A stretch of DNA of 64,000 bases, taken from a virus. Numbering within the stretch: position 1 is the first letter of the stretch; each line of letters starts with the position of its first letter. The translations under genes and the position numbers were made by a program. The DNA lies in IMG/VR virus record IMGVR_UViG_3300046522_000512, positions 1 to 64,000 of that record; one strand, 5' to 3'. A model generated the notes under the pieces. The model saw only the letters and a program-made list of their open reading frames with translations. It had not been told where the DNA came from and did no database searches. Of this stretch, positions 3,664 to 60,599 are shown piece by piece.

Positions 3664-4710
3664 TCACCACCAGCCGTACGCATCCCGCCAGGCCATGCGT
3701 ATCAGCGGCCCCGTTGGAAGGTGGGCCGCCGACTTCGTGTACGACAGCGACATCGTCCAGTACCCGGGCGGAATGAACATCTGCGCCAGTCGCGGACTCG
3801 CCCGCGTCAACTTGTCGGCCACCGAGCCCTTCGACGTCGCTCCGTCGTAGTGGGTGACCGTACGCACCCACGGGCGAGCATCGATCGTGACGTGGTCCCC
3901 GGCGTCGATCGTCATGGACAGCTGCACAGCCCACTGGTCTGACAACGAGAGCTTCGGGTTCTTGCACGGCCCGTGGATCTCCACGTACGGGTAGGTGTTC
4001 AGGGTGCCGGCCTGCTGGACCGCCGCCGTCTTCTTGGACTGGAAAAGCCAACTGCCGCTCGACCCCCGGCCCGGCCGCGGCGGCAACCCCCCAAGGATCC
4101 GGTGGTCGTAGACCGTGGCCTCCTTCTCCGTCGCGTCGTAAAACCGGTCGTCGACGGCCTCGAACTGGGCGACGACCGGCGTGTACCCCTGCCGGGACAG
4201 ACGTGAATGCGAGACCGCGAACTTCCGCGGCCGCCCATAAAACTGCCGGGTTCGGCCTGCAGTCGTGTGCATCAGCCAGCCGACTCGGCCCGCCCCCGCG
4301 CGGATCGAGTCGGCCCGCCACACCTGTCGCAGCATGTTCAGCCCGTCGAGCCCCCACAGGTGCACGCCCTGGTCCTTCTTGAAGGTGCGGGCAGCCACTT
4401 CCTCCACGGCTGTCCAGTCGCCCACCCGGTCGCCGTTCGTCCAGGGGCGTCTGGGCCAGTGCAGATCGATCGGTCCCCTACTGCCGTCGACTCCGAGCTC
4501 GAACGTGACGGTCGCGTTCCGCTGGTAGTCGCGGCCCATACGGACACCGTCCTCGCCCGGCAGCGACGCGTCGGCCAAATCCATGTCGGCGAAGGCGATG
4601 TCCGGCTCGCTCAGGCAGTAGATGCCCGAGGACTCCCGGCCGAACGTCAGCGATGCGCCCGGGTAGGCGTTGTAGGAGGAGTAGCCCAGGAGCCATTCGC
4701 CGTCTCTCAC
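3664..4710 (-). CDS. Distal tail (Dit-like) protein
   Basis: A 348-residue protein. The chosen start is GTG at 4710, which overlaps the stop of the tape measure gene (GTGA), a coupling seen at many joints of this operon. The upstream open frame to 5058 lies inside the tape measure gene and is low-complexity, so it was not used. The N-terminus (GEWLLGYSSYNAYPGAS) and mid-region (QGYTPVVAQFEAVDDRFYD) match the style of actinophage proteins immediately after the tape measure, equivalent to the tail-tube-cap/distal tail protein. Assignment rests mainly on order and overall character. Confidence 0.6.
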   Translation of the reverse strand: MRDGEWLLGYSSYNAYPGASLTFGRESSGIYCLSEPDIAFADMDLADASLPGEDGVRMGRDYQRNATVTFELGVDGSRGPIDLHWPRRPWTNGDRVGDWTAVEEVAARTFKKDQGVHLWGLDGLNMLRQVWRADSIRAGAGRVGWLMHTTAGRTRQFYGRPRKFAVSHSRLSRQGYTPVVAQFEAVDDRFYDATEKEATVYDHRILGGLPPRPGRGSSGSWLFQSKKTAAVQQAGTLNTYPYVEIHGPCKNPKLSLSDQWAVQLSMTIDAGDHVTIDARPWVRTVTHYDGATSKGSVADKLTRASPRLAQMFIPPGYWTMSLSYTKSAAHLPTGPLIRMAWRDAYGWW

Positions 4711-7700
4711 GGGGTGCCTCCCAGACGGATCCGGCGAAGCTCGAACATGGCGTCCTCCAATGCGGTGCCGGTGCTTGCGACGGCACCGATGTTCAGGTTG
4801 AGGTCGCCGCCGACGAGGGCGCCGGCGCCCTGCGGGGCGGACGAGCGCGGTGCGGTGACGGTGCGGGTGGACGAGGAACGGGCCAGGGAGACGGCTCCGT
4901 TGGCGAAGGCGCGCGGTCCGCCCTGGCCGGGGTAAACGACCATGCCGCCGAACATCTGGGCCACCTGGTCGAGGATCGCCTTGCTGCGCTTCCGCTTGGA
5001 TTTGGCCAAAGGGAGGTAAGCCTCGCCCTGAGTCTCGTCCTCCGCCCATATGCGCCATTCGCCGCCCTTTGCGATTTGGGCGATGTGGTTCTCGGCGCCG
5101 TTGGCGAAGGCGCGGACACGGGCGCCGATGGCGTTGATGCCGCCCTCGGCGTAGCGCAGGATGCCGCCGTTGGCGTGCCGTGAGACGACCGACGGCTTGC
5201 CCGACTCGCTGTACTGGACGGTGACGTGCACCGTCTTGCCGGTGAGGCTGTTGATCTTCCCCTGGATCGCCTGCACCTGCTGGATCGGCGTCTTGTTCGG
5301 CGCGGTGATCTTCACCGTCTTGCCGTGTGACCCGTCCACCGTCTTGATCTTGTAGCCGAGATCCTTCAGCGCGGACAGTGCCGTCTTGGTGGGCGTCTTG
5401 ACCTCGATCGACTTGCCCTTGGGCAGGCCCGACACCTTCTGTTGCACAGACTTCAGGTCGCCGGCGGCCTGCTTGATGATCGCCTGGACGGTGACCTTCT
5501 TCTTGTCCGGCGCGGCCGCGATGTCGTCGGCCAGGGCCGCGATGTCGATGCGGGCCTTGCCGCTCGGGGCGGTGACGACGACGTTCTTCGAGCCGGGGAT
5601 GCGCTGGAAGCTGTAGCCGAGGAGCTCAAGCTGAGTGCGCGCCTCGATCGTGGGCGACTTGATCTGAATGCCCTTGCCCGGCGGGATGCTCGCCAGCTGC
5701 GTACGCAGCCCCAAGATTTCCGCGGTGGCCTTCGGCATTCCCTCCGTGGTGATCAGCGTGGTGATCTGATCCGGGATGAACCCCATCTGATCCGCCAGCG
5801 CCTTCGCCGCGGGCGCCGGGATACCCAGCGCCTCGGCGAGCGCGATCGCCTTCGTGCGGGCGGATTCCGCGGCGTCCCGGCTGGTGTTCATCGCCTCCGA
5901 CAGAGGGATGAGGTTGTTGTCGGCGGCCTCGCGCGCGCTCGTGGAGACCTGGAGCATGCCGTCCCGCAGCTCCTCCAACTTCTGGTTCAGATCCTGGCCG
6001 TTCTTCGTGGACGTGTTGACCAGCTTGTCCGTGCCGACCAGGGACTTGCCCCAGCCATCGGAGTGCTCGATGTTGTCCTTCATCGTGTCGTCGATCTGGA
6101 GCATCGTCTGGTTCAGCCGCGCGGTGGCGTCGTGGATCGACATGGTGTTGCCCTTGAGGGAGTCAAGGGCCGACCTGAGCGCCTGGACCCGCTCGTCGGA
6201 GGTCTTCGTCTTGTCGTTGAAGTCCGCGATGGCGCCACCGAGCCGGGTGTAGGAGTCGACGCCGGTGACGCCGCTGTCCTTCATGGCGTCCGCGGCTTCC
6301 TTGCTGTCCCGCTTGGACTTGGCCAACTCACCGTTCACGGAGCCGAGCGCGTCGGCCGCCGCCTTGTACTTCAAGCCGATCTCGTCTGGCACAAGGACGG
6401 AGGCCTTGTCGCCCGCGATGTTCTTGTACTCCATGTGGTCGTTCATCAAGCCGAGCATCTTCTTGCGCAGGTCACCGATAGAGCCGCCCTGCTCCAAGTA
6501 GGCGTCGGTGAGATCCTTCAGCGACACGCCCGCATTGCGCATGGTGTCGACCAGCCGCCCCTTGCCGTCGGCAAGCTGCGTGTCCTGGAGGAGCTGCACG
6601 GCCTGCGCGCGCACGTTCGCGTCGATGACGCCCTTGGAGTCAGCGAGGGCCTTCGCCAGGGACTGGACGCGCTCCTTGTGGGCGGCGGCCGCCCGGGCGT
6701 TCTGCTCCTGCTTCGCGGCGAGGAGACCGAGCCCGATCGTGGCGCCCGCGATCGCGATACCGAGGGGGCCGCCGAGGGCGCCCACAAGGCCAGTACCGAC
6801 GGTGCGGACAAGGCCCCCTGCCGCGGTCGCGGATGTCCGGGCTGCTGCCCTGATCCCGCCCAAGGAGCTGCTCAGCCGGCCGCCCTCCGTGGAGGCTCCA
6901 CGGTAGGCGAGCTGCATGCGCTGCCATGTGCTGATCTGGGGGCCGATGGCGCCAGGCCCCAGACCGTTTGCCGCGCTCCTCAGACCCGTCATGGACAAGC
7001 CGAGGCGCTGCACGATGCTGACGACACCGCCCACAACCTTCAGGGCGAGCATGGTGCCGAGGAACGTCGCCAGGACCGTGTTCGCCCCGGGGATGACGCG
7101 CATGAGCGTGTTGAAGACGCCCAGGAGACCGCTGAACGCCTGCATCAGCACGCCGAGCCCGCTGCCTGCCGCGGACAGGTGCCCGACGGCGGTCGCCAGG
7201 TTGGAGATCAGGCTGATCAGGCCAGGGCCGATGCTGTGGCCGAGGGAGCTGAAGAACGTGCCCAGGGCGGGCCCGAGCTGGGTGCGGATCTGCCGGATCA
7301 GGTCCCTGACCCCGGTGTCCCGAGCAGCCCGGCCGAAGCTGCGGAAGAAGTCGCCGACGAGCATGTTCAGCTCGTGGAACGTGCCCGCAGAGTCCTCGTA
7401 GAACTGTTTCATGGCGGCCTGGCCCGGCTTGCTGTGCGCCCACCGGTCGAAGCGCGTCATCGTGCCCTCAAGGCCGTCGAGGAGGGTGTTGCCGACGTCC
7501 ATGCCGGCCTTGCTCATCCCGCCGAAGCCCTTGATCATGTGCAGCGTCGTGCGGCCCAGCTGGTCCGCCTTCTGCCTGGCGTGGTCGAGGAACTTCGCCA
7601 GCGAACCCGTCTCGCGGCCCGCTTGCACGGAGGCCCGCACCCACTGCGTCAGCCTCTCGGCGCCCGCGCCGACCTGTTCCACGAACGGGCCGGAGGCGAC

Positions 7701-9845
7701 CAGGAAGTCGAGGGAGGCGTGACCCAGGTTCGCGAGCCCGTCGGTCAGGTGGCCGATGACGGTGTTGCTGGTGCCCGCGATCGTCTTGAAGTCCCGGCGG
7801 AACACGCCGGTCTGCATGAACTCCGCACCGCGGTGGGCGAGCTCGCCCATCTGCCCGGCCGCGTCACCGAGGGTGCTTTGCAGGAGCGGCATGACGGAGC
7901 GTGCCAGGGGCTTGATGTCGTTGGCGACCTTGGAGAAGAACCGCTCGGAGACGGCCATCTTGACCTTGTCCCAAGCCACTTGCAGCTGGGAGACCGCTGT
8001 GACCGCCTTGCGCGCCGACGGGCTGAGCTGGTCCATCGCCTGCTTGAGCTTCGCCTGTTGCGCTGCGGTGACCTTGCCACCGGCGGCCGTCTGCTGCTGG
8101 AGCTGCAACGACTCCTTGAGGGCCTTACCGAACCCGGAGAAGGCGACCTTCGTGCCGATGAACGCGGTACCGATGGCGGCGACCAGGCCGGGGATCGCGC
8201 CGAGGACACCCACGGCCGGCGCGGCGGCGGACACGAGCGCGTACAGCCCTTCCACGTACGCGCTGAGTGCCGCAACCGCAGGCTGGCCGAGCGCGAGGAT
8301 CGTCCCGAACAACGCCGCCCGCCAACGGCGGCGGCCGCCGCGGTTCATGTCCGGGCTCACCGGCACGTTGAGCGAGAGGCTGTCGGCGAGGGCTTGCCCG
8401 GCACGGAGCACGCCGCGCAGGCTGCGGGTGAAGAAGTTGCCGCCCTCCGCGCTGACACGGGCACGTATGAGGGAGGTCGCGGCGCGGCCGGCGCGCTGAG
8501 CGATGGTGGCCACGCCCCGCGTCAGGTCTCGGACGGCCCGGGCGGCGGGCGTGACGGCGACTCGGACGGCGTTGCGGGTGTCGCGGGCTGCGGTCGAGGT
8601 GATGCGGCGCAGGTCCCGGGCCAGGCCCGTGACGGCGGTCCGGGCAGGCTCGGTGAGTACGCGCACCCGGGCGGCAACGGCGCTGCTGTACGGGCGGATG
8701 GCCGTGCCGATGCTGCGGCCGAAGTCGGTGATGGCCCGGCGGGAGGAGTCCGCGGCCATGCGCACGCCGACCACGAACTGAGTGCGGTAGCGGGTCGCCA
8801 TCTGCCGTACGGACGTGGCGAAGTCGCGGGCCGCCTGGCGGGACACGTCCGCGCCGACCCGGAGCCGGACACGGAAGTCGCGCAGTGGCCCGAAGATCAG
8901 GCTTTCCAGCCAGCCGGAGCCGCCGAGGCGGCCGCCGAACGCGAGGCGTAGCGCGTCGGCTGCCTCCTCGCCGAGGCGGCGCATGTTCCGGCCGATAGCC
9001 CGGAAATCGGTGCTCCGTACGCGCAGCCCGGCGATCCTGACCCGCAGGGACAGATCGCGGCCGTACGTCGTCAGGAAGTGGCGGGCCTCCCCGGCAAAGG
9101 CGCGTATCGCGTCGCCGGTGGTCGCCACACCGAGCCTCACCTTGGCGCCGAGGCTGCGCACCAGGCCCGCGTTCTTGCCGAGCATGGTGAAGAACGCGCG
9201 GCTGAATGCCCGCCCGGTGTCCCGGCCGGCGGTGACCGCGATGCGGCCCATGTCCCGGACGAACGTGCGCAGCACGCCCCGGGTCGGGGCGAGCGCCGAC
9301 CGCGTGACCATCCGTAGCTGCCGTAGCGCCACGGTGGCGATCCGGGAGAGGGACCCGCCGAGCTGACGCTCTGAGTCGCGGTCCGGTGCGACCCGTACCC
9401 GGACCGTGGAGGCCGCCGGGTCCCGGGCGACCCGGGTGAGCAGACCGCGCAGCGAACCGCGGAGTCTGCCCACCAGACGGCCAAGGCCGCCACCGCCACC
9501 GCCACCACCGTTTCGGGTGCTGCCGTTCTCGTCGTCGCCCAGGCGCACGGGCAGGTTGACCGCCGCGCCCTGCGCGGCGTTGTCGGCCACGGTGGACACC
9601 TCGCGGCGGAGCCGGTTGGTGTCCTCCTCGACCTTGACCTTGACCTTCGCGTAGACGCCCTTGGACGCCTCCTCGACAGCCCGCTTCAACTGCTTGCGCA
9701 GTCCCTTGCTGTCGACCTTGACGGCGATCTTGGCGGCCACGCCCTCGGCGGCCGCCTCCACCTTCGTGCGCAGCTCCCGGGCGAACCCTTCGAGGGAGGC
9801 GACAACGGTGACTTCAAGGCGTCCTGCCTGCATGCCCTCAGCCAC
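4707..9845 (-). CDS. Tape measure protein
   Basis: A 1,712-residue protein, by far the longest of the tail module, directly after the two tail-assembly chaperone frames. It opens with coiled-coil-like sequence (about 1-110), followed by an arginine-rich part (about 120-480) in which short VRVRV / ARxFATSVRxMA-type segments recur. Hydrophobic alpha-helical stretches (about 520-560 and 1,000-1,060) are followed by long polar helices. It ends in the actinophage-style GGEWRIWAEDETQGEAYLPLAKSKRKRS tail region, of which only the character is quoted. The length predicts a long flexible tail. GTG 9845 is used; ATG 9833, with GAGGG four bases upstream, is a possible alternative. Confidence 0.9.
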   Translation of the reverse strand: MAEGMQAGRLEVTVVASLEGFARELRTKVEAAAEGVAAKIAVKVDSKGLRKQLKRAVEEASKGVYAKVKVKVEEDTNRLRREVSTVADNAAQGAAVNLPVRLGDDENGSTRNGGGGGGGGLGRLVGRLRGSLRGLLTRVARDPAASTVRVRVAPDRDSERQLGGSLSRIATVALRQLRMVTRSALAPTRGVLRTFVRDMGRIAVTAGRDTGRAFSRAFFTMLGKNAGLVRSLGAKVRLGVATTGDAIRAFAGEARHFLTTYGRDLSLRVRIAGLRVRSTDFRAIGRNMRRLGEEAADALRLAFGGRLGGSGWLESLIFGPLRDFRVRLRVGADVSRQAARDFATSVRQMATRYRTQFVVGVRMAADSSRRAITDFGRSIGTAIRPYSSAVAARVRVLTEPARTAVTGLARDLRRITSTAARDTRNAVRVAVTPAARAVRDLTRGVATIAQRAGRAATSLIRARVSAEGGNFFTRSLRGVLRAGQALADSLSLNVPVSPDMNRGGRRRWRAALFGTILALGQPAVAALSAYVEGLYALVSAAAPAVGVLGAIPGLVAAIGTAFIGTKVAFSGFGKALKESLQLQQQTAAGGKVTAAQQAKLKQAMDQLSPSARKAVTAVSQLQVAWDKVKMAVSERFFSKVANDIKPLARSVMPLLQSTLGDAAGQMGELAHRGAEFMQTGVFRRDFKTIAGTSNTVIGHLTDGLANLGHASLDFLVASGPFVEQVGAGAERLTQWVRASVQAGRETGSLAKFLDHARQKADQLGRTTLHMIKGFGGMSKAGMDVGNTLLDGLEGTMTRFDRWAHSKPGQAAMKQFYEDSAGTFHELNMLVGDFFRSFGRAARDTGVRDLIRQIRTQLGPALGTFFSSLGHSIGPGLISLISNLATAVGHLSAAGSGLGVLMQAFSGLLGVFNTLMRVIPGANTVLATFLGTMLALKVVGGVVSIVQRLGLSMTGLRSAANGLGPGAIGPQISTWQRMQLAYRGASTEGGRLSSSLGGIRAAARTSATAAGGLVRTVGTGLVGALGGPLGIAIAGATIGLGLLAAKQEQNARAAAAHKERVQSLAKALADSKGVIDANVRAQAVQLLQDTQLADGKGRLVDTMRNAGVSLKDLTDAYLEQGGSIGDLRKKMLGLMNDHMEYKNIAGDKASVLVPDEIGLKYKAAADALGSVNGELAKSKRDSKEAADAMKDSGVTGVDSYTRLGGAIADFNDKTKTSDERVQALRSALDSLKGNTMSIHDATARLNQTMLQIDDTMKDNIEHSDGWGKSLVGTDKLVNTSTKNGQDLNQKLEELRDGMLQVSTSAREAADNNLIPLSEAMNTSRDAAESARTKAIALAEALGIPAPAAKALADQMGFIPDQITTLITTEGMPKATAEILGLRTQLASIPPGKGIQIKSPTIEARTQLELLGYSFQRIPGSKNVVVTAPSGKARIDIAALADDIAAAPDKKKVTVQAIIKQAAGDLKSVQQKVSGLPKGKSIEVKTPTKTALSALKDLGYKIKTVDGSHGKTVKITAPNKTPIQQVQAIQGKINSLTGKTVHVTVQYSESGKPSVVSRHANGGILRYAEGGINAIGARVRAFANGAENHIAQIAKGGEWRIWAEDETQGEAYLPLAKSKRKRSKAILDQVAQMFGGMVVYPGQGGPRAFANGAVSLARSSSTRTVTAPRSSAPQGAGALVGGDLNLNIGAVASTGTALEDAMFELRRIRLGGTP

Positions 9846-10254
9846 TGACCTGCACCATTCCTCTCCGGGCAGCGGCCGCCAACATCTTGCGGTGGCCGGT
9901 CATACGGGGCTGCCGCGGGCTGTTCCCCTGGGGGACAGCGGCGGCGTCTTCAAGGGCCGGTGGTCGGTGTACCGACACGGGCTCCTTGCGGCGCTTCTCC
10001 GCGGCGAGAATCGAAACTTCCTCGATGACCTGCGCCAGGAGTTCCTTGGTCACCGTCCAGCCGCCAACGGGGGTGGACATGACGCGGGAGTCCTCCGGCA
10101 GCCCGTCGAGGAGTGACGTCAGTCGTCGGAGGCCGATGAATCCGGGCTGTCCTGGCCGGAGCCAGACTCGGCGGGCGTCGATGCGGTGGTATCGGGAGAG
10201 GTCGGACTCGACGTCTGCGAACCGCTCGCGGAGGAGCCGCCCAGTCCGAAGAGC
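9838..10254 (-). CDS. Tail assembly chaperone, frameshifted T domain (G-T fusion)
   Basis: This segment is read as the -1 frame continuation of the upstream chaperone gene. After GGGAAAG (10260 to 10254) the shifted frame is open for 138 codons (ALRTGRLLRERFADVES...RRLTSLLDGLPEDS...) and stops just inside the tape measure start. The internal ATG at 10080 would miss the well-formed upstream part. The DxxRYHRIDxRRVW...LTSLLDGLP pattern is typical of siphovirus T domains. Fusion length would be about 278 residues. Such fusions bind the tape measure during tail assembly. Confidence 0.85.
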   Translation of the reverse strand, partial: ALRTGRLLRERFADVESDLSRYHRIDARRVWLRPGQPGFIGLRRLTSLLDGLPEDSRVMSTPVGGWTVTKELLAQVIEEVSILAAEKRRKEPVSVHRPPALEDAAAVPQGNSPRQPRMTGHRKMLAAAARRGMVQVSG

Positions 10255-10673
10255 TTTCCCAGGTCCACCGCGTAGATGGTCGCGAGGGCCTTGGTCAGGC
10301 GTACGTACTCGGGGACCGACGGCTTGTGCGCCGTGAAGTCCTCGAACTCGTCCTCGCCGAGGAGCTCCCTGTAGATGTCCTTCACCGCGGCGACGAACTG
10401 GCGCGGGAGGTTGCCGTGCCGGAAGAACAGATCGACGACCTCGCCGGTGCCGATGTCGCCCGAGCCGTTCATGGTCTCGCCGATGAGCCCCATCAGGTTG
10501 AGGTCGTCGGACAGCAGCGGGTCCAGTGCGTCCGCGGGGAGCTCGGCCGGGAACATCAGATCCCAGTCGTCGCGCACCTTCACGGCGATGCCGTGAGGGA
10601 ACTTCACCTCACGCCGGTCGGCAGAGATGTCGATGGCGTACGTCGAGTCGGTCTTGGCCGTCTTGGCGGTCAT
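10119..10673 (-). CDS. Tail assembly chaperone, G protein
   Basis: A 184-residue protein from ATG at 10673 with SD GGGAGGAC. The open frame continues upstream to 10787 but there crosses a palindrome of the partition locus, so the ATG is preferred. The body is acidic and helical (PAELPADALDPLLSDDLNLMGLIGE, DIYRELLGEDEFEDF, VRLTKALATIYAVDLGKLFGLGG). It ends in a Ser/Asp/Thr-rich tail that exists only in the unshifted product. It precedes the tape measure gene as in lambda (G and G-T). A copy of the intergenic motif lies 55 bases upstream (10729-10737). Confidence 0.85.
   Translation of the reverse strand: MTAKTAKTDSTYAIDISADRREVKFPHGIAVKVRDDWDLMFPAELPADALDPLLSDDLNLMGLIGETMNGSGDIGTGEVVDLFFRHGNLPRQFVAAVKDIYRELLGEDEFEDFTAHKPSVPEYVRLTKALATIYAVDLGKLFGLGGSSASGSQTSSPTSPDTTASTPAESGSGQDSPDSSASDD
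10254..10260 (-). promoter_or_regulatory. Programmed -1 ribosomal frameshift site GGGAAAG
   Basis: In the G frame the codons read ctG GGA AAG, an exact X XXY YYZ slippery heptamer, and the same GGGAAAG as used in lambda G/T. The -1 frame is open from here to 9838 and encodes a recognisable T domain. The heptamer is about 135 bases before the G stop. Confidence 0.9.
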
Positions 10674-10763
10674 GGGTCGGGTCCTCCCGGTGGGTGTCGA
10701 AGCACCGGGAAGGTAGGAACCCTGATCGGCTTGCGTCTCGGGGTGCGCCGGGCCTGCGGAACT

Positions 10764-10877
10764 CCCGTGTCTCTCAGTGAGAGACACGGGTGCACGCCGA
10801 CATGATTCGAGCCGTGTCTCTCAGTGAGAGACACGGCTCGGGAAGGCCGTCTGGGTGTGTCTCTCACTGAGAGACAC
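10764..10877. repeat. Three parS-like palindromes upstream of parA
   Basis: Three perfect inverted repeats share the arms GTGTCTCTCA / TGAGAGACAC around one central base: 10764-10790 (13+1+13), 10808-10840 (16+1+16) and 10857-10877 (10+1+10, centre C instead of G). Centres are 47 and 43 bases apart, about four helical turns. Arms outside the common core differ between copies but stay palindromic, as expected for selected protein-binding sites. Together with the two copies after the ParB-like gene they frame the parAB pair, so a centromere and/or autoregulatory operator role is likely. Confidence 0.85.
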
Positions 10878-10976
10878 GACCCTTTCGGTTACAGCCTATG
10901 GGGGTCTGCCACTTGGATAATCGTTTGGCTGGCAGAATGCGAGCGACCTGATCGCCATGCCTGGAAGGGCGACGTC

Positions 10977-11873
10977 GTGACCATCATGCCTATGTCAGCC
11001 GAAGCTCTCGGCGTCGACTACCGACTCTTCAGCCACGTGACTGTTTTCGCCAGCGGTAAGGGAGGCGTCGGCAAGACCACCCTGACCGGCAACAACGCCA
11101 CCCGGACCGCCAGCAAGGGAATCCCCACCCTGGCCGTCGACGCCAACGGGCAGGGCAATCTCCGGCGCGAGTTCGGCATGGACGAGGGCGACCGGGGCGA
11201 GGCTTTCTACGAGTCCCTGAAGAACGGCACCCCGCTGGTGCCCGTCAAGAACGTGCGCCCCAATCTCGACGTCGTCGTGGGGGGCAGTGAACTCCGCCAG
11301 ATCACCAGTCTGTTCATGGAGCTCGCGACGCGAGAGGGCCCCTATGCGGCGTTCTGCCGCCTCGCGCAGTGCCTGCAACCGCTGCTCCCGAACTACGGCG
11401 TCGTCTGGATGGACGCTCCGCCGGAGAACCCGAACATCCTCACCCTGTGCCTGTGCGCGAGCCGCTGGCTTGTCGCCCCGGTGAAGATGGACGTGTGCTC
11501 GCTGGAAGATGCACTCAAGGACATCTCCGACGCCTTCCGCGCCGCGAAGCAGGTCAACCAGCTCCTCGAACTGCTGGGCGTCGTCCACTTCGGGTCGCCG
11601 AACAAGTCGAGCAGCATCCACAAGGAAGTCGTCCACGAGGCTCGCAAGATGCTCGGCGCGAACACCCACGTGTTCGACGAGACCGTTCACGCCTCCTCCA
11701 AGACCGCCCAGCTCGCCCGCAAGCTCGGCGTCTCCGTCTGGGAGCTCGAACAGCTGAAGCGGCCCGAGGACAAGGGCTTTGAAGACACGATTGCCAAGCT
11801 TGCCGCGGCTCACGACCAGCTGACCACCGCGATGCTGCTGCGCATGAGGAGCCGACTGGAGATGGCCGCATGA
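10977..11873 (+). CDS. parA: ParA-type partition ATPase
   Basis: A 298-residue protein with the deviant Walker A of ParA/MinD ATPases (SGKGGVGKTTLTGNNA, about residues 23-39), a VDANGQGN A'-motif where DxDPQ is usual, and a WMDAPPENPN hydrolysis motif. The frame is open back to 10824, but that part overlaps two palindromes. GTG 10977 has GGAAGGG about seven bases upstream; ATG 10986 is the alternative. It is on the plus strand, opposite to the surrounding virion genes, and overlaps the next gene by ATGA. Known ParA proteins segregate low-copy plasmids. A possible -10 (GATAAT, near 10915-10920) lies between the palindromes and the gene. Confidence 0.9.
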   Translation: MTIMPMSAEALGVDYRLFSHVTVFASGKGGVGKTTLTGNNATRTASKGIPTLAVDANGQGNLRREFGMDEGDRGEAFYESLKNGTPLVPVKNVRPNLDVVVGGSELRQITSLFMELATREGPYAAFCRLAQCLQPLLPNYGVVWMDAPPENPNILTLCLCASRWLVAPVKMDVCSLEDALKDISDAFRAAKQVNQLLELLGVVHFGSPNKSSSIHKEVVHEARKMLGANTHVFDETVHASSKTAQLARKLGVSVWELEQLKRPEDKGFEDTIAKLAAAHDQLTTAMLLRMRSRLEMAA

Positions 11874-12745
11874 CCACGAACACCGAAGACGCGCGCGGCG
11901 AACTGGAGGACGCTTTCAGTGGCAAGGCGTCGCCCGAGGAGGACCCGTTCGCCTTCCTGAAGCTCGCGGGCACCGGCCTCCCCGACCAGCAGTCCAGCGC
12001 CACGGCGGCCGTGGTCGAGCCGGAGCCTGAGCAGCTGGAGGTCGAGCCCGAGCCGCCGGCCGACGCGCCCAAGAGCGAGCGCCTCGCGTACTTCGAGGGC
12101 ATCGTCTACCGCGAGCGGGAGCTGTACAAGGACACCGTCGCCGCGGCCGACAACCGGTTCGTGGAGCGGGCGAGTGGCCCGCTGTACGCCATCAACCGGG
12201 AGAAGCTGTATCTGGAGCTCATCTCGGAGGAGACCGGCGAGCCGTTCGAGCGGTTCAAGGACTACCTCGCGGAGCGCTGGGGCATCTCCCGGGCGCACGG
12301 CTACCGGATCCTCAACGAGTACCCGGTGATGACGGCCCTCGGCGACGATGCGCCGGACAAGCTCACCACCCGCCAGGTCCCGAAGCTGCTCGCCGTGCTG
12401 CGCTCGCGCGGCGCGGAGGATGAGGCAGTAGGCCGGGAGGCGGTCCGCACGGTGTGGCGGGAGTCGGAGGTGAAGACGCCGGCGGGCTTGCAGGCGACCA
12501 TCGACCGTCTTGGCTGGGGCGACGCCGAAGCCGAAGCGCTCGACGACCTCAGCGAATCCGACCGGGAACGCGTCGCGCTGGTCGACCGCTGGGACAAGGT
12601 GACGCGGGCGCTCGACCCTGCGAAGGCCCGGCAACTGCTGTCGCGGAGTCCCGAGGACGCGCAGCGGCTCCTCGACCAGGTGATGCCGTTCGTGAAGGTC
12701 CTGGAAGAGGTCGCGCAGCTTCCGGCCGCCAAGGGCGAGAAGTAG
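11870..12745 (+). CDS. ParB-like centromere-binding protein (non-canonical)
   Basis: A 291-residue protein coupled to parA by ATGA. It lacks the usual ParB N-terminal nuclease-fold motifs. The first about 75 residues are acidic and disordered (EEDPFAFLKLAG, EPEPEQLEVEPEP). A helix-turn-helix-like segment follows at about 118-150 (ERFKDYLAERWGISRAHGYRILN), then long charged helices to the C-terminus. Position between palindrome clusters makes it the probable binder of those sites. The function is inferred from operon context; sequence alone would give only a HTH DNA-binding protein. Confidence 0.7.
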   Translation: MTTNTEDARGELEDAFSGKASPEEDPFAFLKLAGTGLPDQQSSATAAVVEPEPEQLEVEPEPPADAPKSERLAYFEGIVYRERELYKDTVAAADNRFVERASGPLYAINREKLYLELISEETGEPFERFKDYLAERWGISRAHGYRILNEYPVMTALGDDAPDKLTTRQVPKLLAVLRSRGAEDEAVGREAVRTVWRESEVKTPAGLQATIDRLGWGDAEAEALDDLSESDRERVALVDRWDKVTRALDPAKARQLLSRSPEDAQRLLDQVMPFVKVLEEVAQLPAAKGEK

Positions 12746-12762
12746 CGCCGATCGCTGCCCGG

Positions 12763-12836
12763 AGCCCCGTGTCTCTCAGTGAGAGACACGGGGCTTTCCG
12801 CTTCCCCGGCCCGTGTCTCTCAGTGAGAGACACGGG
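12763..12836. repeat. Two parS-like palindromes downstream of the ParB-like gene
   Basis: Perfect inverted repeats at 12763-12795 (16+1+16) and 12810-12836 (13+1+13), with the same GTGTCTCTCA / TGAGAGACAC core as the upstream cluster and centres 44 bases apart. The first is followed by TTTCC and could also act as the plus-strand parAB terminator. The second ends seven bases before the stop of the convergent tail tube gene. Confidence 0.85.
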
Positions 12837-12842
12837 ACTCGA

Positions 12843-13433
12843 TCACGGCGCCGGCGCGAACGACGGGTCGTCGGTGAGCAGGTACCAGGCGTCGGCGTCA
12901 TCGCCGCCCTGCACGGCCAGGCGCAGCGGCAGCACGGCCTCCTTTGCCTTCTGGAGGTCCGACTGCACGCCCTCCATCTGCATGGCGCGCGGCACCACGT
13001 ATCTGTAGTGCTTGCCGCCGTCGATGACCTCGACCACGGCCGCGATCTCGCCGCGGCCGCCGACGCGCGGCGGCACGAACTTGTAGTGCTTCGGGGTGCC
13101 GCCCCCGGACGGCGTGATCTCGGTGATCGTGCCGCCGCCGAACACGGCCTTGAAGTTCGCGCCGTTCCACTGCTGGAGGTCGACCTCGATCGTCGCCGAG
13201 TCCGAGGTCTGGAAGGTGCGCGACGGGTAGTCCGACTGCGCGCTCTTCACGGTCTCGAACTGGGGCTCTTCGTTGAATTTGAGCGAGTCCTCGGTGGTGA
13301 GGCCAACGCTGTACCAGCCCGTGCCCATGGCGGCGGTAGCGTCCGCCGGGGCCGCGGTGCCCACGGGCGCAAGCCATACCTGGGTACGTGCGGGGATGAC
13401 GATCTGGGTGTTGTTCGTGATTTCGCCACTCAT
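12843..13433 (-). CDS. Major tail (tube) protein
   Basis: A 196-residue protein from ATG at 13433 with SD GGAGAG. It starts MSGEITNNTQIVIPARTQVWLAPVGTAAP and has the alternating beta pattern of siphovirus tube proteins (LTTEDSLKFNEEPQFETVKSAQ, ATIEVDLQQWNGANFKAVFGGG, YYLTTDDPS-like end). It lies between the tail terminator genes and the chaperones, the canonical position. A small hairpin (13449-13471) and an intergenic motif copy (13491-13499, 57 bases before the start) precede it. Confidence 0.85.
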   Translation of the reverse strand: MSGEITNNTQIVIPARTQVWLAPVGTAAPADATAAMGTGWYSVGLTTEDSLKFNEEPQFETVKSAQSDYPSRTFQTSDSATIEVDLQQWNGANFKAVFGGGTITEITPSGGGTPKHYKFVPPRVGGRGEIAAVVEVIDGGKHYRYVVPRAMQMEGVQSDLQKAKEAVLPLRLAVQGGDDADAWYLLTDDPSFAPAP

Positions 13434-15304: not shown

Positions 15305-15940
15305 TCAGCCCGCCACAGCCGTGACGAGAGCCTTGGAGATCCCGAGCTTCACCGCGGTCGCGTACGTCGTGAATGCCGTCGTGCGGTTCCCGCGGTTGGC
15401 CCGGGTCGTGTCGCCGCCGGTGAAGAACGCCTGACGCTGTGCCGTGGTCAGCTCCAGTTGGACGCCCATGCCCCTGGTGGTGCGGTTGCAGATGTTCGCG
15501 GGGTCGTTGCCGTTCAGCTCCTCGGACGCGACGCTCACAGTGAACCCGGCGTCTTTAAGGCACTGCCCGATCTGGTCGCGGAGGTTGTAGTCGGCGCCGC
15601 CGAGGTACGTCGCTGCGCCGGTGCCGGTCGCGCCGTGGAACGACACGGCGTGCGTGGCGGCCGCCGCCATCTTCAAGGCCTGCGCCTCGTCGTAGCGGGT
15701 CGACGTGACGTGCAGGTCATCGTTCGTGCCCGCCGTCTTGAACCCGTCCAGGGCGTAGAAGTTGTGGATGTCCCCGGCGACGACGTCCGCGATCTCCTGA
15801 GAACCGGGCTCGATACCGCCGCCGTGGATCGCGAAGCACACCAGGCTCGACACCTGGGAGAGCCGCCAGAGCCGCTGAAAGTCGATGCCCTCAATCTGGG
15901 CGGCTGCCAACTGCGCATAGGAGCTGTAGAGGTCGGGCAC
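15305..15940 (-). CDS. Poly-gamma-glutamate hydrolase family protein
   Basis: A 211-residue protein, full length for the family. It shows the zinc-peptidase signatures: HGGGIEPGSQE (His39, Glu44), LHVTSTRYDEAQAL (His77) and VSFHG (His102), then NICNRTTRGMGVQLELT. Known members (YmaC/PghP type) cleave gamma-linked polyglutamate of bacterial capsules. It starts at GTG 15940 with a weak SD. It lies between the connector and head closure genes and is transcribed with them, so it may be a virion enzyme or a passenger gene that helps penetrate host surface polymer. Confidence 0.85.
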   Translation of the reverse strand: MPDLYSSYAQLAAAQIEGIDFQRLWRLSQVSSLVCFAIHGGGIEPGSQEIADVVAGDIHNFYALDGFKTAGTNDDLHVTSTRYDEAQALKMAAAATHAVSFHGATGTGAATYLGGADYNLRDQIGQCLKDAGFTVSVASEELNGNDPANICNRTTRGMGVQLELTTAQRQAFFTGGDTTRANRGNRTTAFTTYATAVKLGISKALVTAVAG

Positions 15941-59378: not shown

Positions 59379-60599
59379 CTAGCCTGCGCCGTCCGCGCCT
59401 TCGGTGCGGGCCTGCTGTACGGCGGCATGCGCAGGGCCGCCGTACAGCGGCACCGCGGCGAGCGGGTCCTTCTCCCCCTGACCGTGAGTGCGGTCGTACA
59501 CCGTGTCGGCGGTGTGCGAGCCATCCGCCCACCGGCCAGCCGTGTTGCGCTCCTTGAGCGGGACGCCTGCCGCGATCATGTCGGTGTTCGCCCCGGCCCG
59601 CCACGAGTGCGAGCGGACCCGCTGACCGTCGATGTACGGCACCCCTGCCCGCTCGGCGAGGAGCTGGAACCGCTCGTTCAGGGAGCCGGGGCGCATCTTC
59701 TTCCCGCGCTTGCGGTCCTCCGGGTAGGAGCGCAGGCCGCCTTTCACCGTCAGGGACCGGAACAGCGGATCATTGGGGCCGTTCGCGCCGAGCTCGCGCA
59801 GGACATCGAGCCACGCGCGGGCGCGGCGGACGAGTTGGAGGTCTTCCCGGTCCTGGATGAACCGCCCGGCGCCCTTTCCGGCCTGGTCGGTCTTGGACGT
59901 CGCCGTGATCACGTAGAGGCCCGTGTCGTGGACGCGGACCCGCCCGACGAGCTGATCGGCGAGCTCCATCTCCCGGTGCAGGTTGACGTACGCCAGGACC
60001 GCGAGGAACGCGTCCCGCTTGCCGATGGGGGTGTCCTCGTCGATCGACGCAATGATCCGCAGGTTGTACGTGAGCGTGACGGCCGCAGCCCGGTCGACCT
60101 CCCCGCCGGCCTTCACCCACTCTTTGCGCCAGGCCCTGACCCGACCCTGCGCGCGGGAGCGGTCGGGGCGCATGCCCACCGGCTGCCAGTTGTAGATGCG
60201 GGAGAGGTACTGCGCGACCGTGTCCGGCTTGAACTCCCCCGCCTTGCCCCTGCGGATCAAGTGCAGGGCGTACGAGGTGTACGTCCGGGTTGTGCACGGG
60301 GACGCGAGGAGCGGCGGCTTCTGCTGCGCGCACCAGGCCTCGAAGGCCCGGACCGTGGAGTCGCGGTTGATGACGGTGTTCTCCGCCAGGTCCGGCTGTT
60401 CGAGGTCTTCGACGTCCTGTTCGGTCAGCCGGAAGTCGGCATCGGTCCACGCGGGCCGCTCGTCGGCGAGCGGCGGCATCTCGCCGGGCGCAAGCATCGT
60501 GTGTTGGTTGACCAGGTAGCGCGGCTGTTCGGCGACGGCCGGGCCGGGGTGTCCGGCGGGCACCAACTCGCCTTCGACGATGTCCAGTTCCGAGGTCAA
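59379..60599 (-). CDS. Tyrosine recombinase / integrase
   Basis: A 406-residue protein from TTG 60599 (SD GGAGGAG six bases upstream; overlaps the upstream stop). The N-terminal SAM-like core-binding region lies at about 55-170 (NTVINRDSTVRAFEAWCAQQKPPLL...AQYLSRIYNW). The catalytic part has NLHREMELADQLVGRVR (probable first Arg region), VRSHSWRAGANTDMIAAG (HxxR), GRWADGSHTADTVYDR (His/Trp position and catalytic Tyr). Such enzymes integrate, excise or resolve multimers. With the partition locus present, resolving dimers is as likely as integration. No att site identified. Confidence 0.85.
   Translation of the reverse strand: MTSELDIVEGELVPAGHPGPAVAEQPRYLVNQHTMLAPGEMPPLADERPAWTDADFRLTEQDVEDLEQPDLAENTVINRDSTVRAFEAWCAQQKPPLLASPCTTRTYTSYALHLIRRGKAGEFKPDTVAQYLSRIYNWQPVGMRPDRSRAQGRVRAWRKEWVKAGGEVDRAAAVTLTYNLRIIASIDEDTPIGKRDAFLAVLAYVNLHREMELADQLVGRVRVHDTGLYVITATSKTDQAGKGAGRFIQDREDLQLVRRARAWLDVLRELGANGPNDPLFRSLTVKGGLRSYPEDRKRGKKMRPGSLNERFQLLAERAGVPYIDGQRVRSHSWRAGANTDMIAAGVPLKERNTAGRWADGSHTADTVYDRTHGQGEKDPLAAVPLYGGPAHAAVQQARTEGADGAG

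Follow-up and report, generated by a model that had tools for sequence, protein, structure and literature searches.

What is a pair of partition-like genes, flanked by perfect palindromes and transcribed against its neighbours, doing in the middle of a phage tail module? The question is raised by a 64,000-nt sequence (hereafter the window) of IMG/VR record IMGVR_UViG_3300046522_000512, an incomplete viral contig of which the full record comprises 84,790 bases. In the reading considered very likely here, the locus is a type-I-like ParA-ParT partition cassette of a Streptomyces phage-plasmid, in which the palindromes would serve as parS sites, a ParT-like protein would bind them, form a clamp and stimulate ParA, modules are exchanged at one junction, and a palindrome may have a side role as terminator.

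The cassette lies between the major tail tube gene (12843..13433, - strand; PF25681 Phage_TTP_17, 1e-36), which is its left flank in the sense of the tail genes, and a gene in the position of a tail assembly chaperone (10119..10676, -), which is its right flank. The latter shares 51-60% identity with the gene that relatives have between their tube and tape measure genes, and its counterpart in phage Gilgamesh is annotated as a tail assembly chaperone; a tape measure gene (4707..9845, -; PHROGs tail length tape measure, 3.9e-64) completes the tail module context. Between these flanks, parA (10986..11873, +; alternative GTG start at 10977) and the gene of a 291-aa helix-turn-helix (HTH) protein (11870..12745, +) overlap by 4 bp (ATGA). 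Five perfect palindromes, all candidate parS sites, surround the pair. Three precede parA, at 10764..10790 (27 bp), 10808..10840 (33 bp with extended arms; RNA hairpin of -30.6 kcal/mol, z -5.6), and 10857..10877 (21 bp), and two follow the HTH gene, at 12763..12795 (33 bp with extended arms; -34.5 kcal/mol, z -5.5) and 12810..12836 (27 bp), the last one separated by 6 bp from the stop codon of the tube gene. All share the core GTGTCTCTCA-S-TGAGAGACAC, with cores that start 47 and 43 bases apart in the upstream group and 44 bases apart in the downstream one. The initial annotation had described precisely this arrangement, i.e., a ParA and an HTH protein on the strand opposite to the tail genes and five palindromes with one common core, three before and two after, spaced 43-47 bases, and it was true to the base in coordinates and strands. 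In the interval between the last of the upstream palindromes and parA, the 17-mer CTGGCAGAATGCGAGCG (10929..10945, +) is identical in all six cassettes found in this study and is a candidate parA promoter/operator; a sigma-70 promoter scan of the locus found no consensus.

The window ParA carries the deviant Walker A motif KGGVGKTT and matches PF13614 (1.7e-17) and phrog_164 (7e-23), and the solved sequences nearest to it belong to the ParA family. Its partner has no family match in Pfam, PHROGs, or NCBIfam, and no ParB_N domain (PF02195) was found among these, in agreement with the earlier remark that it has no visible ParB nuclease fold. Compared with canonical type-I ParABS systems, the Walker-type ParA is thus present, whereas a ParB_N/CTPase partner is not. 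From this, the partner had been thought to represent a possible new family of centromere-binding proteins, a proposal that does not hold, as it is recognisably related to ParT of the Streptomyces coelicolor plasmid SCP2. A profile of 12 sequences, built from partner relatives collected from viral contigs, genomes, and plasmids, aligned with SCP2 ParT over 173 columns (hhalign probability 98.9, E 3.6e-17), in contrast to the ParB of phage RedRock (probability 0.1); with the single sequence, BLASTP gave 31% identity to SCP2 ParT over 104 aa (8e-8). ParT was described in 2025 as a substitute for ParB with a CTP-independent role in partition (Sukhoverkov et al. 2025, PMC12260392). It has a flexible N-terminus, a long N-domain helix, an HTH middle domain, and a C domain, and no CTPase fold (PMC12260392).

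Structure prediction is consistent with such a layout. In the AF2 model of the full-length partner (mean pLDDT 71.9), a disordered stretch of 66 residues leads into helices spanning 68-110; the HTH region starts near residue 129, and a linker connects it to C-terminal helices (231-282) predicted with modest confidence (pLDDT about 44-76), which may correspond to a dimerisation domain of the SCP2 type. Residues 66-217 modelled separately reached a mean pLDDT of 90.8, with one 43-residue helix and then a helical HTH region; the predicted long helix and HTH region, encoded at 12071..12349 (+), span about residues 68-110 and 129-160, respectively. Foldseek searches with the full and trimmed models against the PDB, and with the full model against viral models, returned no significant match, ParB included, which leaves sequence profiles and layout as the basis of the ParT assignment. 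At rank 26, a Myxococcus ParB (E 6.9) was not taken as evidence of a shared fold, and a sequence search against solved structures gave no credible match for the partner. The N-terminal SRR peptide, which directly follows the start of SCP2 ParT and which that protein needs to contact ParA, is absent from the window protein, which begins MTTNTEDARGELEDAF. The SRR belongs to SCP2 ParT itself, and N-terminal disorder is the feature of the wider family (PMC12260392); the latter is predicted for the window protein. A conserved (D/E)(K/R)GxLEDAF stretch in the ParT-like proteins could stand in for SRR as a putative ParA contact. Taken together, the partner is, judged from its sequence profile, a divergent relative of SCP2 ParT and not an entirely new family.

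The palindromes are confined to the cassette. In the 64-kb window, these five, of 21-33 bp, are the only palindromes with a half-length of at least 10 (gap up to 1), whereas 30 first-order Markov simulations averaged 0.37 such palindromes and never exceeded 2. No copy of the core was found outside the cassette in the whole 84,790-base record. Likewise, the exact sites occur only around the cassette in all six carrier genomes, and they were absent from eight other records searched. The core sequence differs by ParT lineage (GTGTCTCTCA-S-TGAGAGACAC, GTGTCTCTCATGAGAGACAC, GTGTCTCACATGTGAGACAC), with forms of 21 bp (odd-centred) and 20 bp and an GTGTCTCACA form, with GTTTCCCAAATTTGGGAAAC in the plasmid pFRL1 and in Streptomyces canus. 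The palindromes also travel with the cassette: in both the window and the carrier L007, three flank parA and two flank parT, although the two cassettes are oppositely oriented relative to the tail genes.

One of the sites may serve a further purpose. In the palindrome that directly follows parT, the arms are extended by a sequence that differs per genome but stays self-complementary (window, AGCCCC; L007, GGGCCTC; L009, AGGGGGC; L020, GTACGAGGGCCC), and the hairpins at the loci tested have z-scores of -5.5 to -9.4. A run of eight Ts follows the extended palindrome in L007 and a run of six in L009, giving these relatives a hairpin and T-run typical of a classic intrinsic terminator, on the basis of which it is proposed that the parS copy after parT may also terminate the parA-parT transcript and, in the window, possibly that of the converging tube gene. 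The palindromes were not listed by a terminator scan of the window because only three Ts follow there.

The same ParA-ParT cassette was found at the same tube-chaperone junction in six genomes, namely the window record, the IMG/VR records 3300047470_000343 (L010), 3300046809_000906 (L007), 2515154101_000002 (L009), and 2784746770_000001 (L020; 129,292 bp), and the plasmid NZ_CP122459 of Streptomyces sp. 11x1 (L013; 131,521 bp); a second contig, L008, has palindromes and a match identical to those of L007. In all six, parA adjoins the parT-like gene, with an overlap of 4 bp; the window and L010 have the cassette directed against the tail genes, the other four along them. With one insertion site in related genomes and with sites confined to the cassette, the interpretation as a partition locus in the tail module is well supported. 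The search for homologous partner proteins near ParA that had been suggested at the outset returned them in all six cassettes as well as in pFRL1 and S. canus V4I20. A second clade of ParT-like proteins (L023-L030) is found in viral contigs and the phage-plasmid pS1D4-14.2; its members have no clear palindromes of 16 or longer beside their genes. The 11x1 plasmid also encodes a lone protein with a ParB N-terminal domain (L107:1820-2443) beside its ParA-ParT cassette.

A lysogenic plasmid state, too, had been anticipated, and it fits the relatives. A search with the tail tube protein led to the isolated phage Gilgamesh (129 kb) and to seven plasmids of Streptomyces, all complete and 125-133 kb long. 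Relatives are thus phage genomes that exist as extrachromosomal replicons, the defining property of phage-plasmids, and one of them, the complete plasmid NZ_CP122459, carries the ParA-ParT cassette. Its ssb gene is split over the two ends of the record; its label as linear was therefore not taken at face value, and the plasmid is most likely circular. None of the ParT-type carriers found lies within a chromosome, so the element is not one that exists only in integrated form; for the window record itself, a plasmid state is deduced from these relatives. Where family members lie in contigs of chromosome scale (9.96 Mb, 873 kb, 328 kb, and 231 kb), no ParA is present on the contig near the phage genes, and the member on a 126-kb contig has a Gilgamesh-type ParA pair. 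In this small sample, the partition system is associated with the extrachromosomal state. The window record contains a tyrosine recombinase-like gene (59379-60599, -; PF00589 1.1e-5, just under the cut-off; PHROGs integrase 1.6e-6), a weak match that may point to dimer resolution or to integration, which is possible for this record. It was not accepted as proof of integration, given that complete plasmid relatives carry a tyrosine recombinase as well.

The junction itself is an exchange site in this family of about 125-133-kb Streptomyces phage-plasmids. In Streptomyces sp. MBT27, NBC_00536, and NBC_01278, it holds a canonical ParA and ParB, on the strand opposite to the tail genes, the ParB being a protein of 415-500 aa with ParB_N and HTH_ParB domains (PF02195, PF17762). 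An empty junction of 101-139 bp is found in Gilgamesh, S. zaomyceticus, S. anulatus, and NBC_01220; these genomes have a third ParA pair at another locus, next to uppS or its counterpart. The partner in this third pair (L042:4238-6003; counterparts in L043, L044, and L045) is a 300-aa protein that belongs to no known family, and three of the four have a palindrome, TTGCCCAATTGGGCAA, upstream of parA. Gilgamesh gp104 was rejected as a close ParT relative, the hhalign probability of 17 being a hint at most. Exactly one ParA above the cut-off is present in each of the 13 family records, which are eight complete genomes and five viral contigs, most of the latter fragments. A scan of 394 Streptomyces genomes added nine close members, of which one has ParA/ParB at the junction, one an HNH endonuclease gene (L083:6189-7325; PF13392 2.6e-12), and seven nothing.

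In a tree of tube and chaperone, all ten genomes with an occupied junction form one clade (100/100), within which the ParT and ParB types are not separated, and the empty and HNH ones fall into another. Adding part of the tape measure dissolves this division into two clades; neither a single ParT-type clade (AU p 0.0017) nor a single ParB-type clade (p 0.021) is then accepted, and the partition type must have changed at least three times. Because the tape measure is mosaic and the tree has one long branch, numbers of gains and losses are not claimed, and the only conclusion drawn is that the partition type is not inherited together with the tail genes.

Three other explanations of the locus were weighed. 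It might be a canonical CTP-dependent ParABS system in which the CTPase domain of ParB has diverged beyond recognition. A ParA partner and flanking palindromic sites are present, ParA/ParB pairs occupy the identical junction in three related plasmids, and the SCP1 ParBs, with their poorly conserved CTPase domains, are real CTPases (PMC13245405). Nevertheless, the partner lacks a ParB_N match, its predicted part ahead of the HTH (disordered residues 1-66 and one long helix) appears too little for a CTPase fold, and its best relative, ParT, is reported to have no NTPase activity, which makes this explanation improbable.

That the small unit is primarily a mobile cassette, with the palindromes as recombination sites and partition as cargo only, would account for the two orientations in which it occurs with its palindromes always attached, for the acceptance of ParA/ParB cassettes and an HNH endonuclease gene at the same junction, and for tail-gene trees that do not track the partition type. 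Yet no recombinase is encoded within the cassette, the replacement cassettes lack these palindromes, and empty sites have none at all; we give this explanation little credence. Even less probable is a role of the HTH protein as a prophage repressor, with the palindromes as operators or stoperators that silence tail transcription and with ParA as an incidental neighbour. Some sites are next to the stop codon of the tube gene and others precede the chaperone gene, so that protein bound there could block late transcription, and the HTH gene, overlapping parA, may autoregulate it. This repressor/stoperator reading was discarded on account of the confinement of the sites to the cassette in every genome, with none at other promoters; in addition, the sites invert together with the cassette, keeping their three-to-two distribution between the parA and parT ends either way, and related gene pairs occur on pFRL1, in a stretch in which no phage genes were seen.

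Compared with known systems, the locus most resembles SCP2 (AL645771), where ParA is likewise encoded beside an HTH protein without a ParB CTPase domain, with an inverted-repeat centromere (here a candidate one), detectable profile homology and, in the partner, a disordered N-terminus, a long N-domain helix, and an HTH middle region. The differences are considerable: identity is about 31% and extends over only 104 residues, the window protein lacks the SRR start, the ParAs are only distantly alike, and the cassettes described here have arrays of 20-21-bp palindromes on both sides of the genes in a phage tail module, whereas SCP2 has one mapped 18-bp parS inside parT. The linear plasmid pFRL1 and S. 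canus V4I20 also pair ParA with a ParT-like protein, at 26-30% identity, and a single palindrome (GTTTCCCAAATTTGGGAAAC) flanks the genes at either end; they differ from the window in the core and are not located in a tail module. The RedRock-type parABS of cluster A mycobacteriophages (PMC7157519) is similarly a phage cassette with sites on both sides (parS-L and parS-R) and an extrachromosomal prophage, but its 89-aa ParB is unrelated to the window partner by profile, its parS consists of 8-bp direct repeats instead of palindromes, and it is found where relatives carry an integration cassette and not at the tube-chaperone junction. The ParA/ParB pairs of MBT27, NBC_00536, and NBC_01278 share the junction and the phage family with the window, but with their different partner and other sites they replace the ParT cassette and do not resemble it.

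In the favoured ParA-ParT reading, the palindromes flanking the genes would be the centromere, and the ParT-like protein would bind them as a dimer via its HTH domain. It probably loads at parS and then spreads on the adjoining DNA as a clamp that, by analogy with SCP2 ParT, would be closed by the long N-terminal helix and slide without CTP. The resulting ParT-DNA cluster would stimulate the ParA ATPase, and ParA would move plasmid copies apart over the nucleoid, in hyphae and in spores. A terminator function is also probable for the extended palindrome that follows parT, with the cassette sitting at the transcription boundary between tube and chaperone. Counting against the ParT reading are the lack of a significant Foldseek match, the missing SRR, and the position of the SCP2 parS inside parT and not flanking it. 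A broader idea can be offered tentatively, and we consider it somewhat more doubtful than probable: the junction may be a dedicated plasmid-identity socket, in which unrelated partition systems (CTP-independent ParA-ParT and CTPase ParA-ParB) are swapped against incompatibility and parS sites double as terminators that insulate the lysogenic cassette in the late structural operon.

ParT-type partition, so far associated with the conjugative plasmid SCP2 and homologues, is now placed in phage-plasmids. In the literature searched, with partial coverage, no description was found of ParT-type systems in phages or of this junction as an exchange site, and in PMC12260392 a phage appears only as an integration site for constructs. 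The several natural ParT-parS pairs with differing cores are suited to testing specificity and a CTP-independent clamp. In the RedRock type, diverse ParB types are thought to avoid incompatibility (PMC7157519); with unrelated systems exchanged at one position and one ParA per complete genome, the idea of incompatibility avoidance is directly testable in the present family. A centromere site within a terminator hairpin, if true, would be an economical way of retaining a lysogenic cassette in a structural gene block. Lastly, some other genes of this family were noted: giant genes lie upstream of the capsid genes, namely Gilgamesh gene 48 (13.9 kb; L005:23651-24350) and an 18.9-kb gene on the 11x1 plasmid (L013:1-7159) annotated as a DEAD/DEAH helicase, and in the head-tail gene block of the window, a gene at 15305-15940 (-) matches a PHROGs poly-gamma-glutamate hydrolase (7.7e-39).
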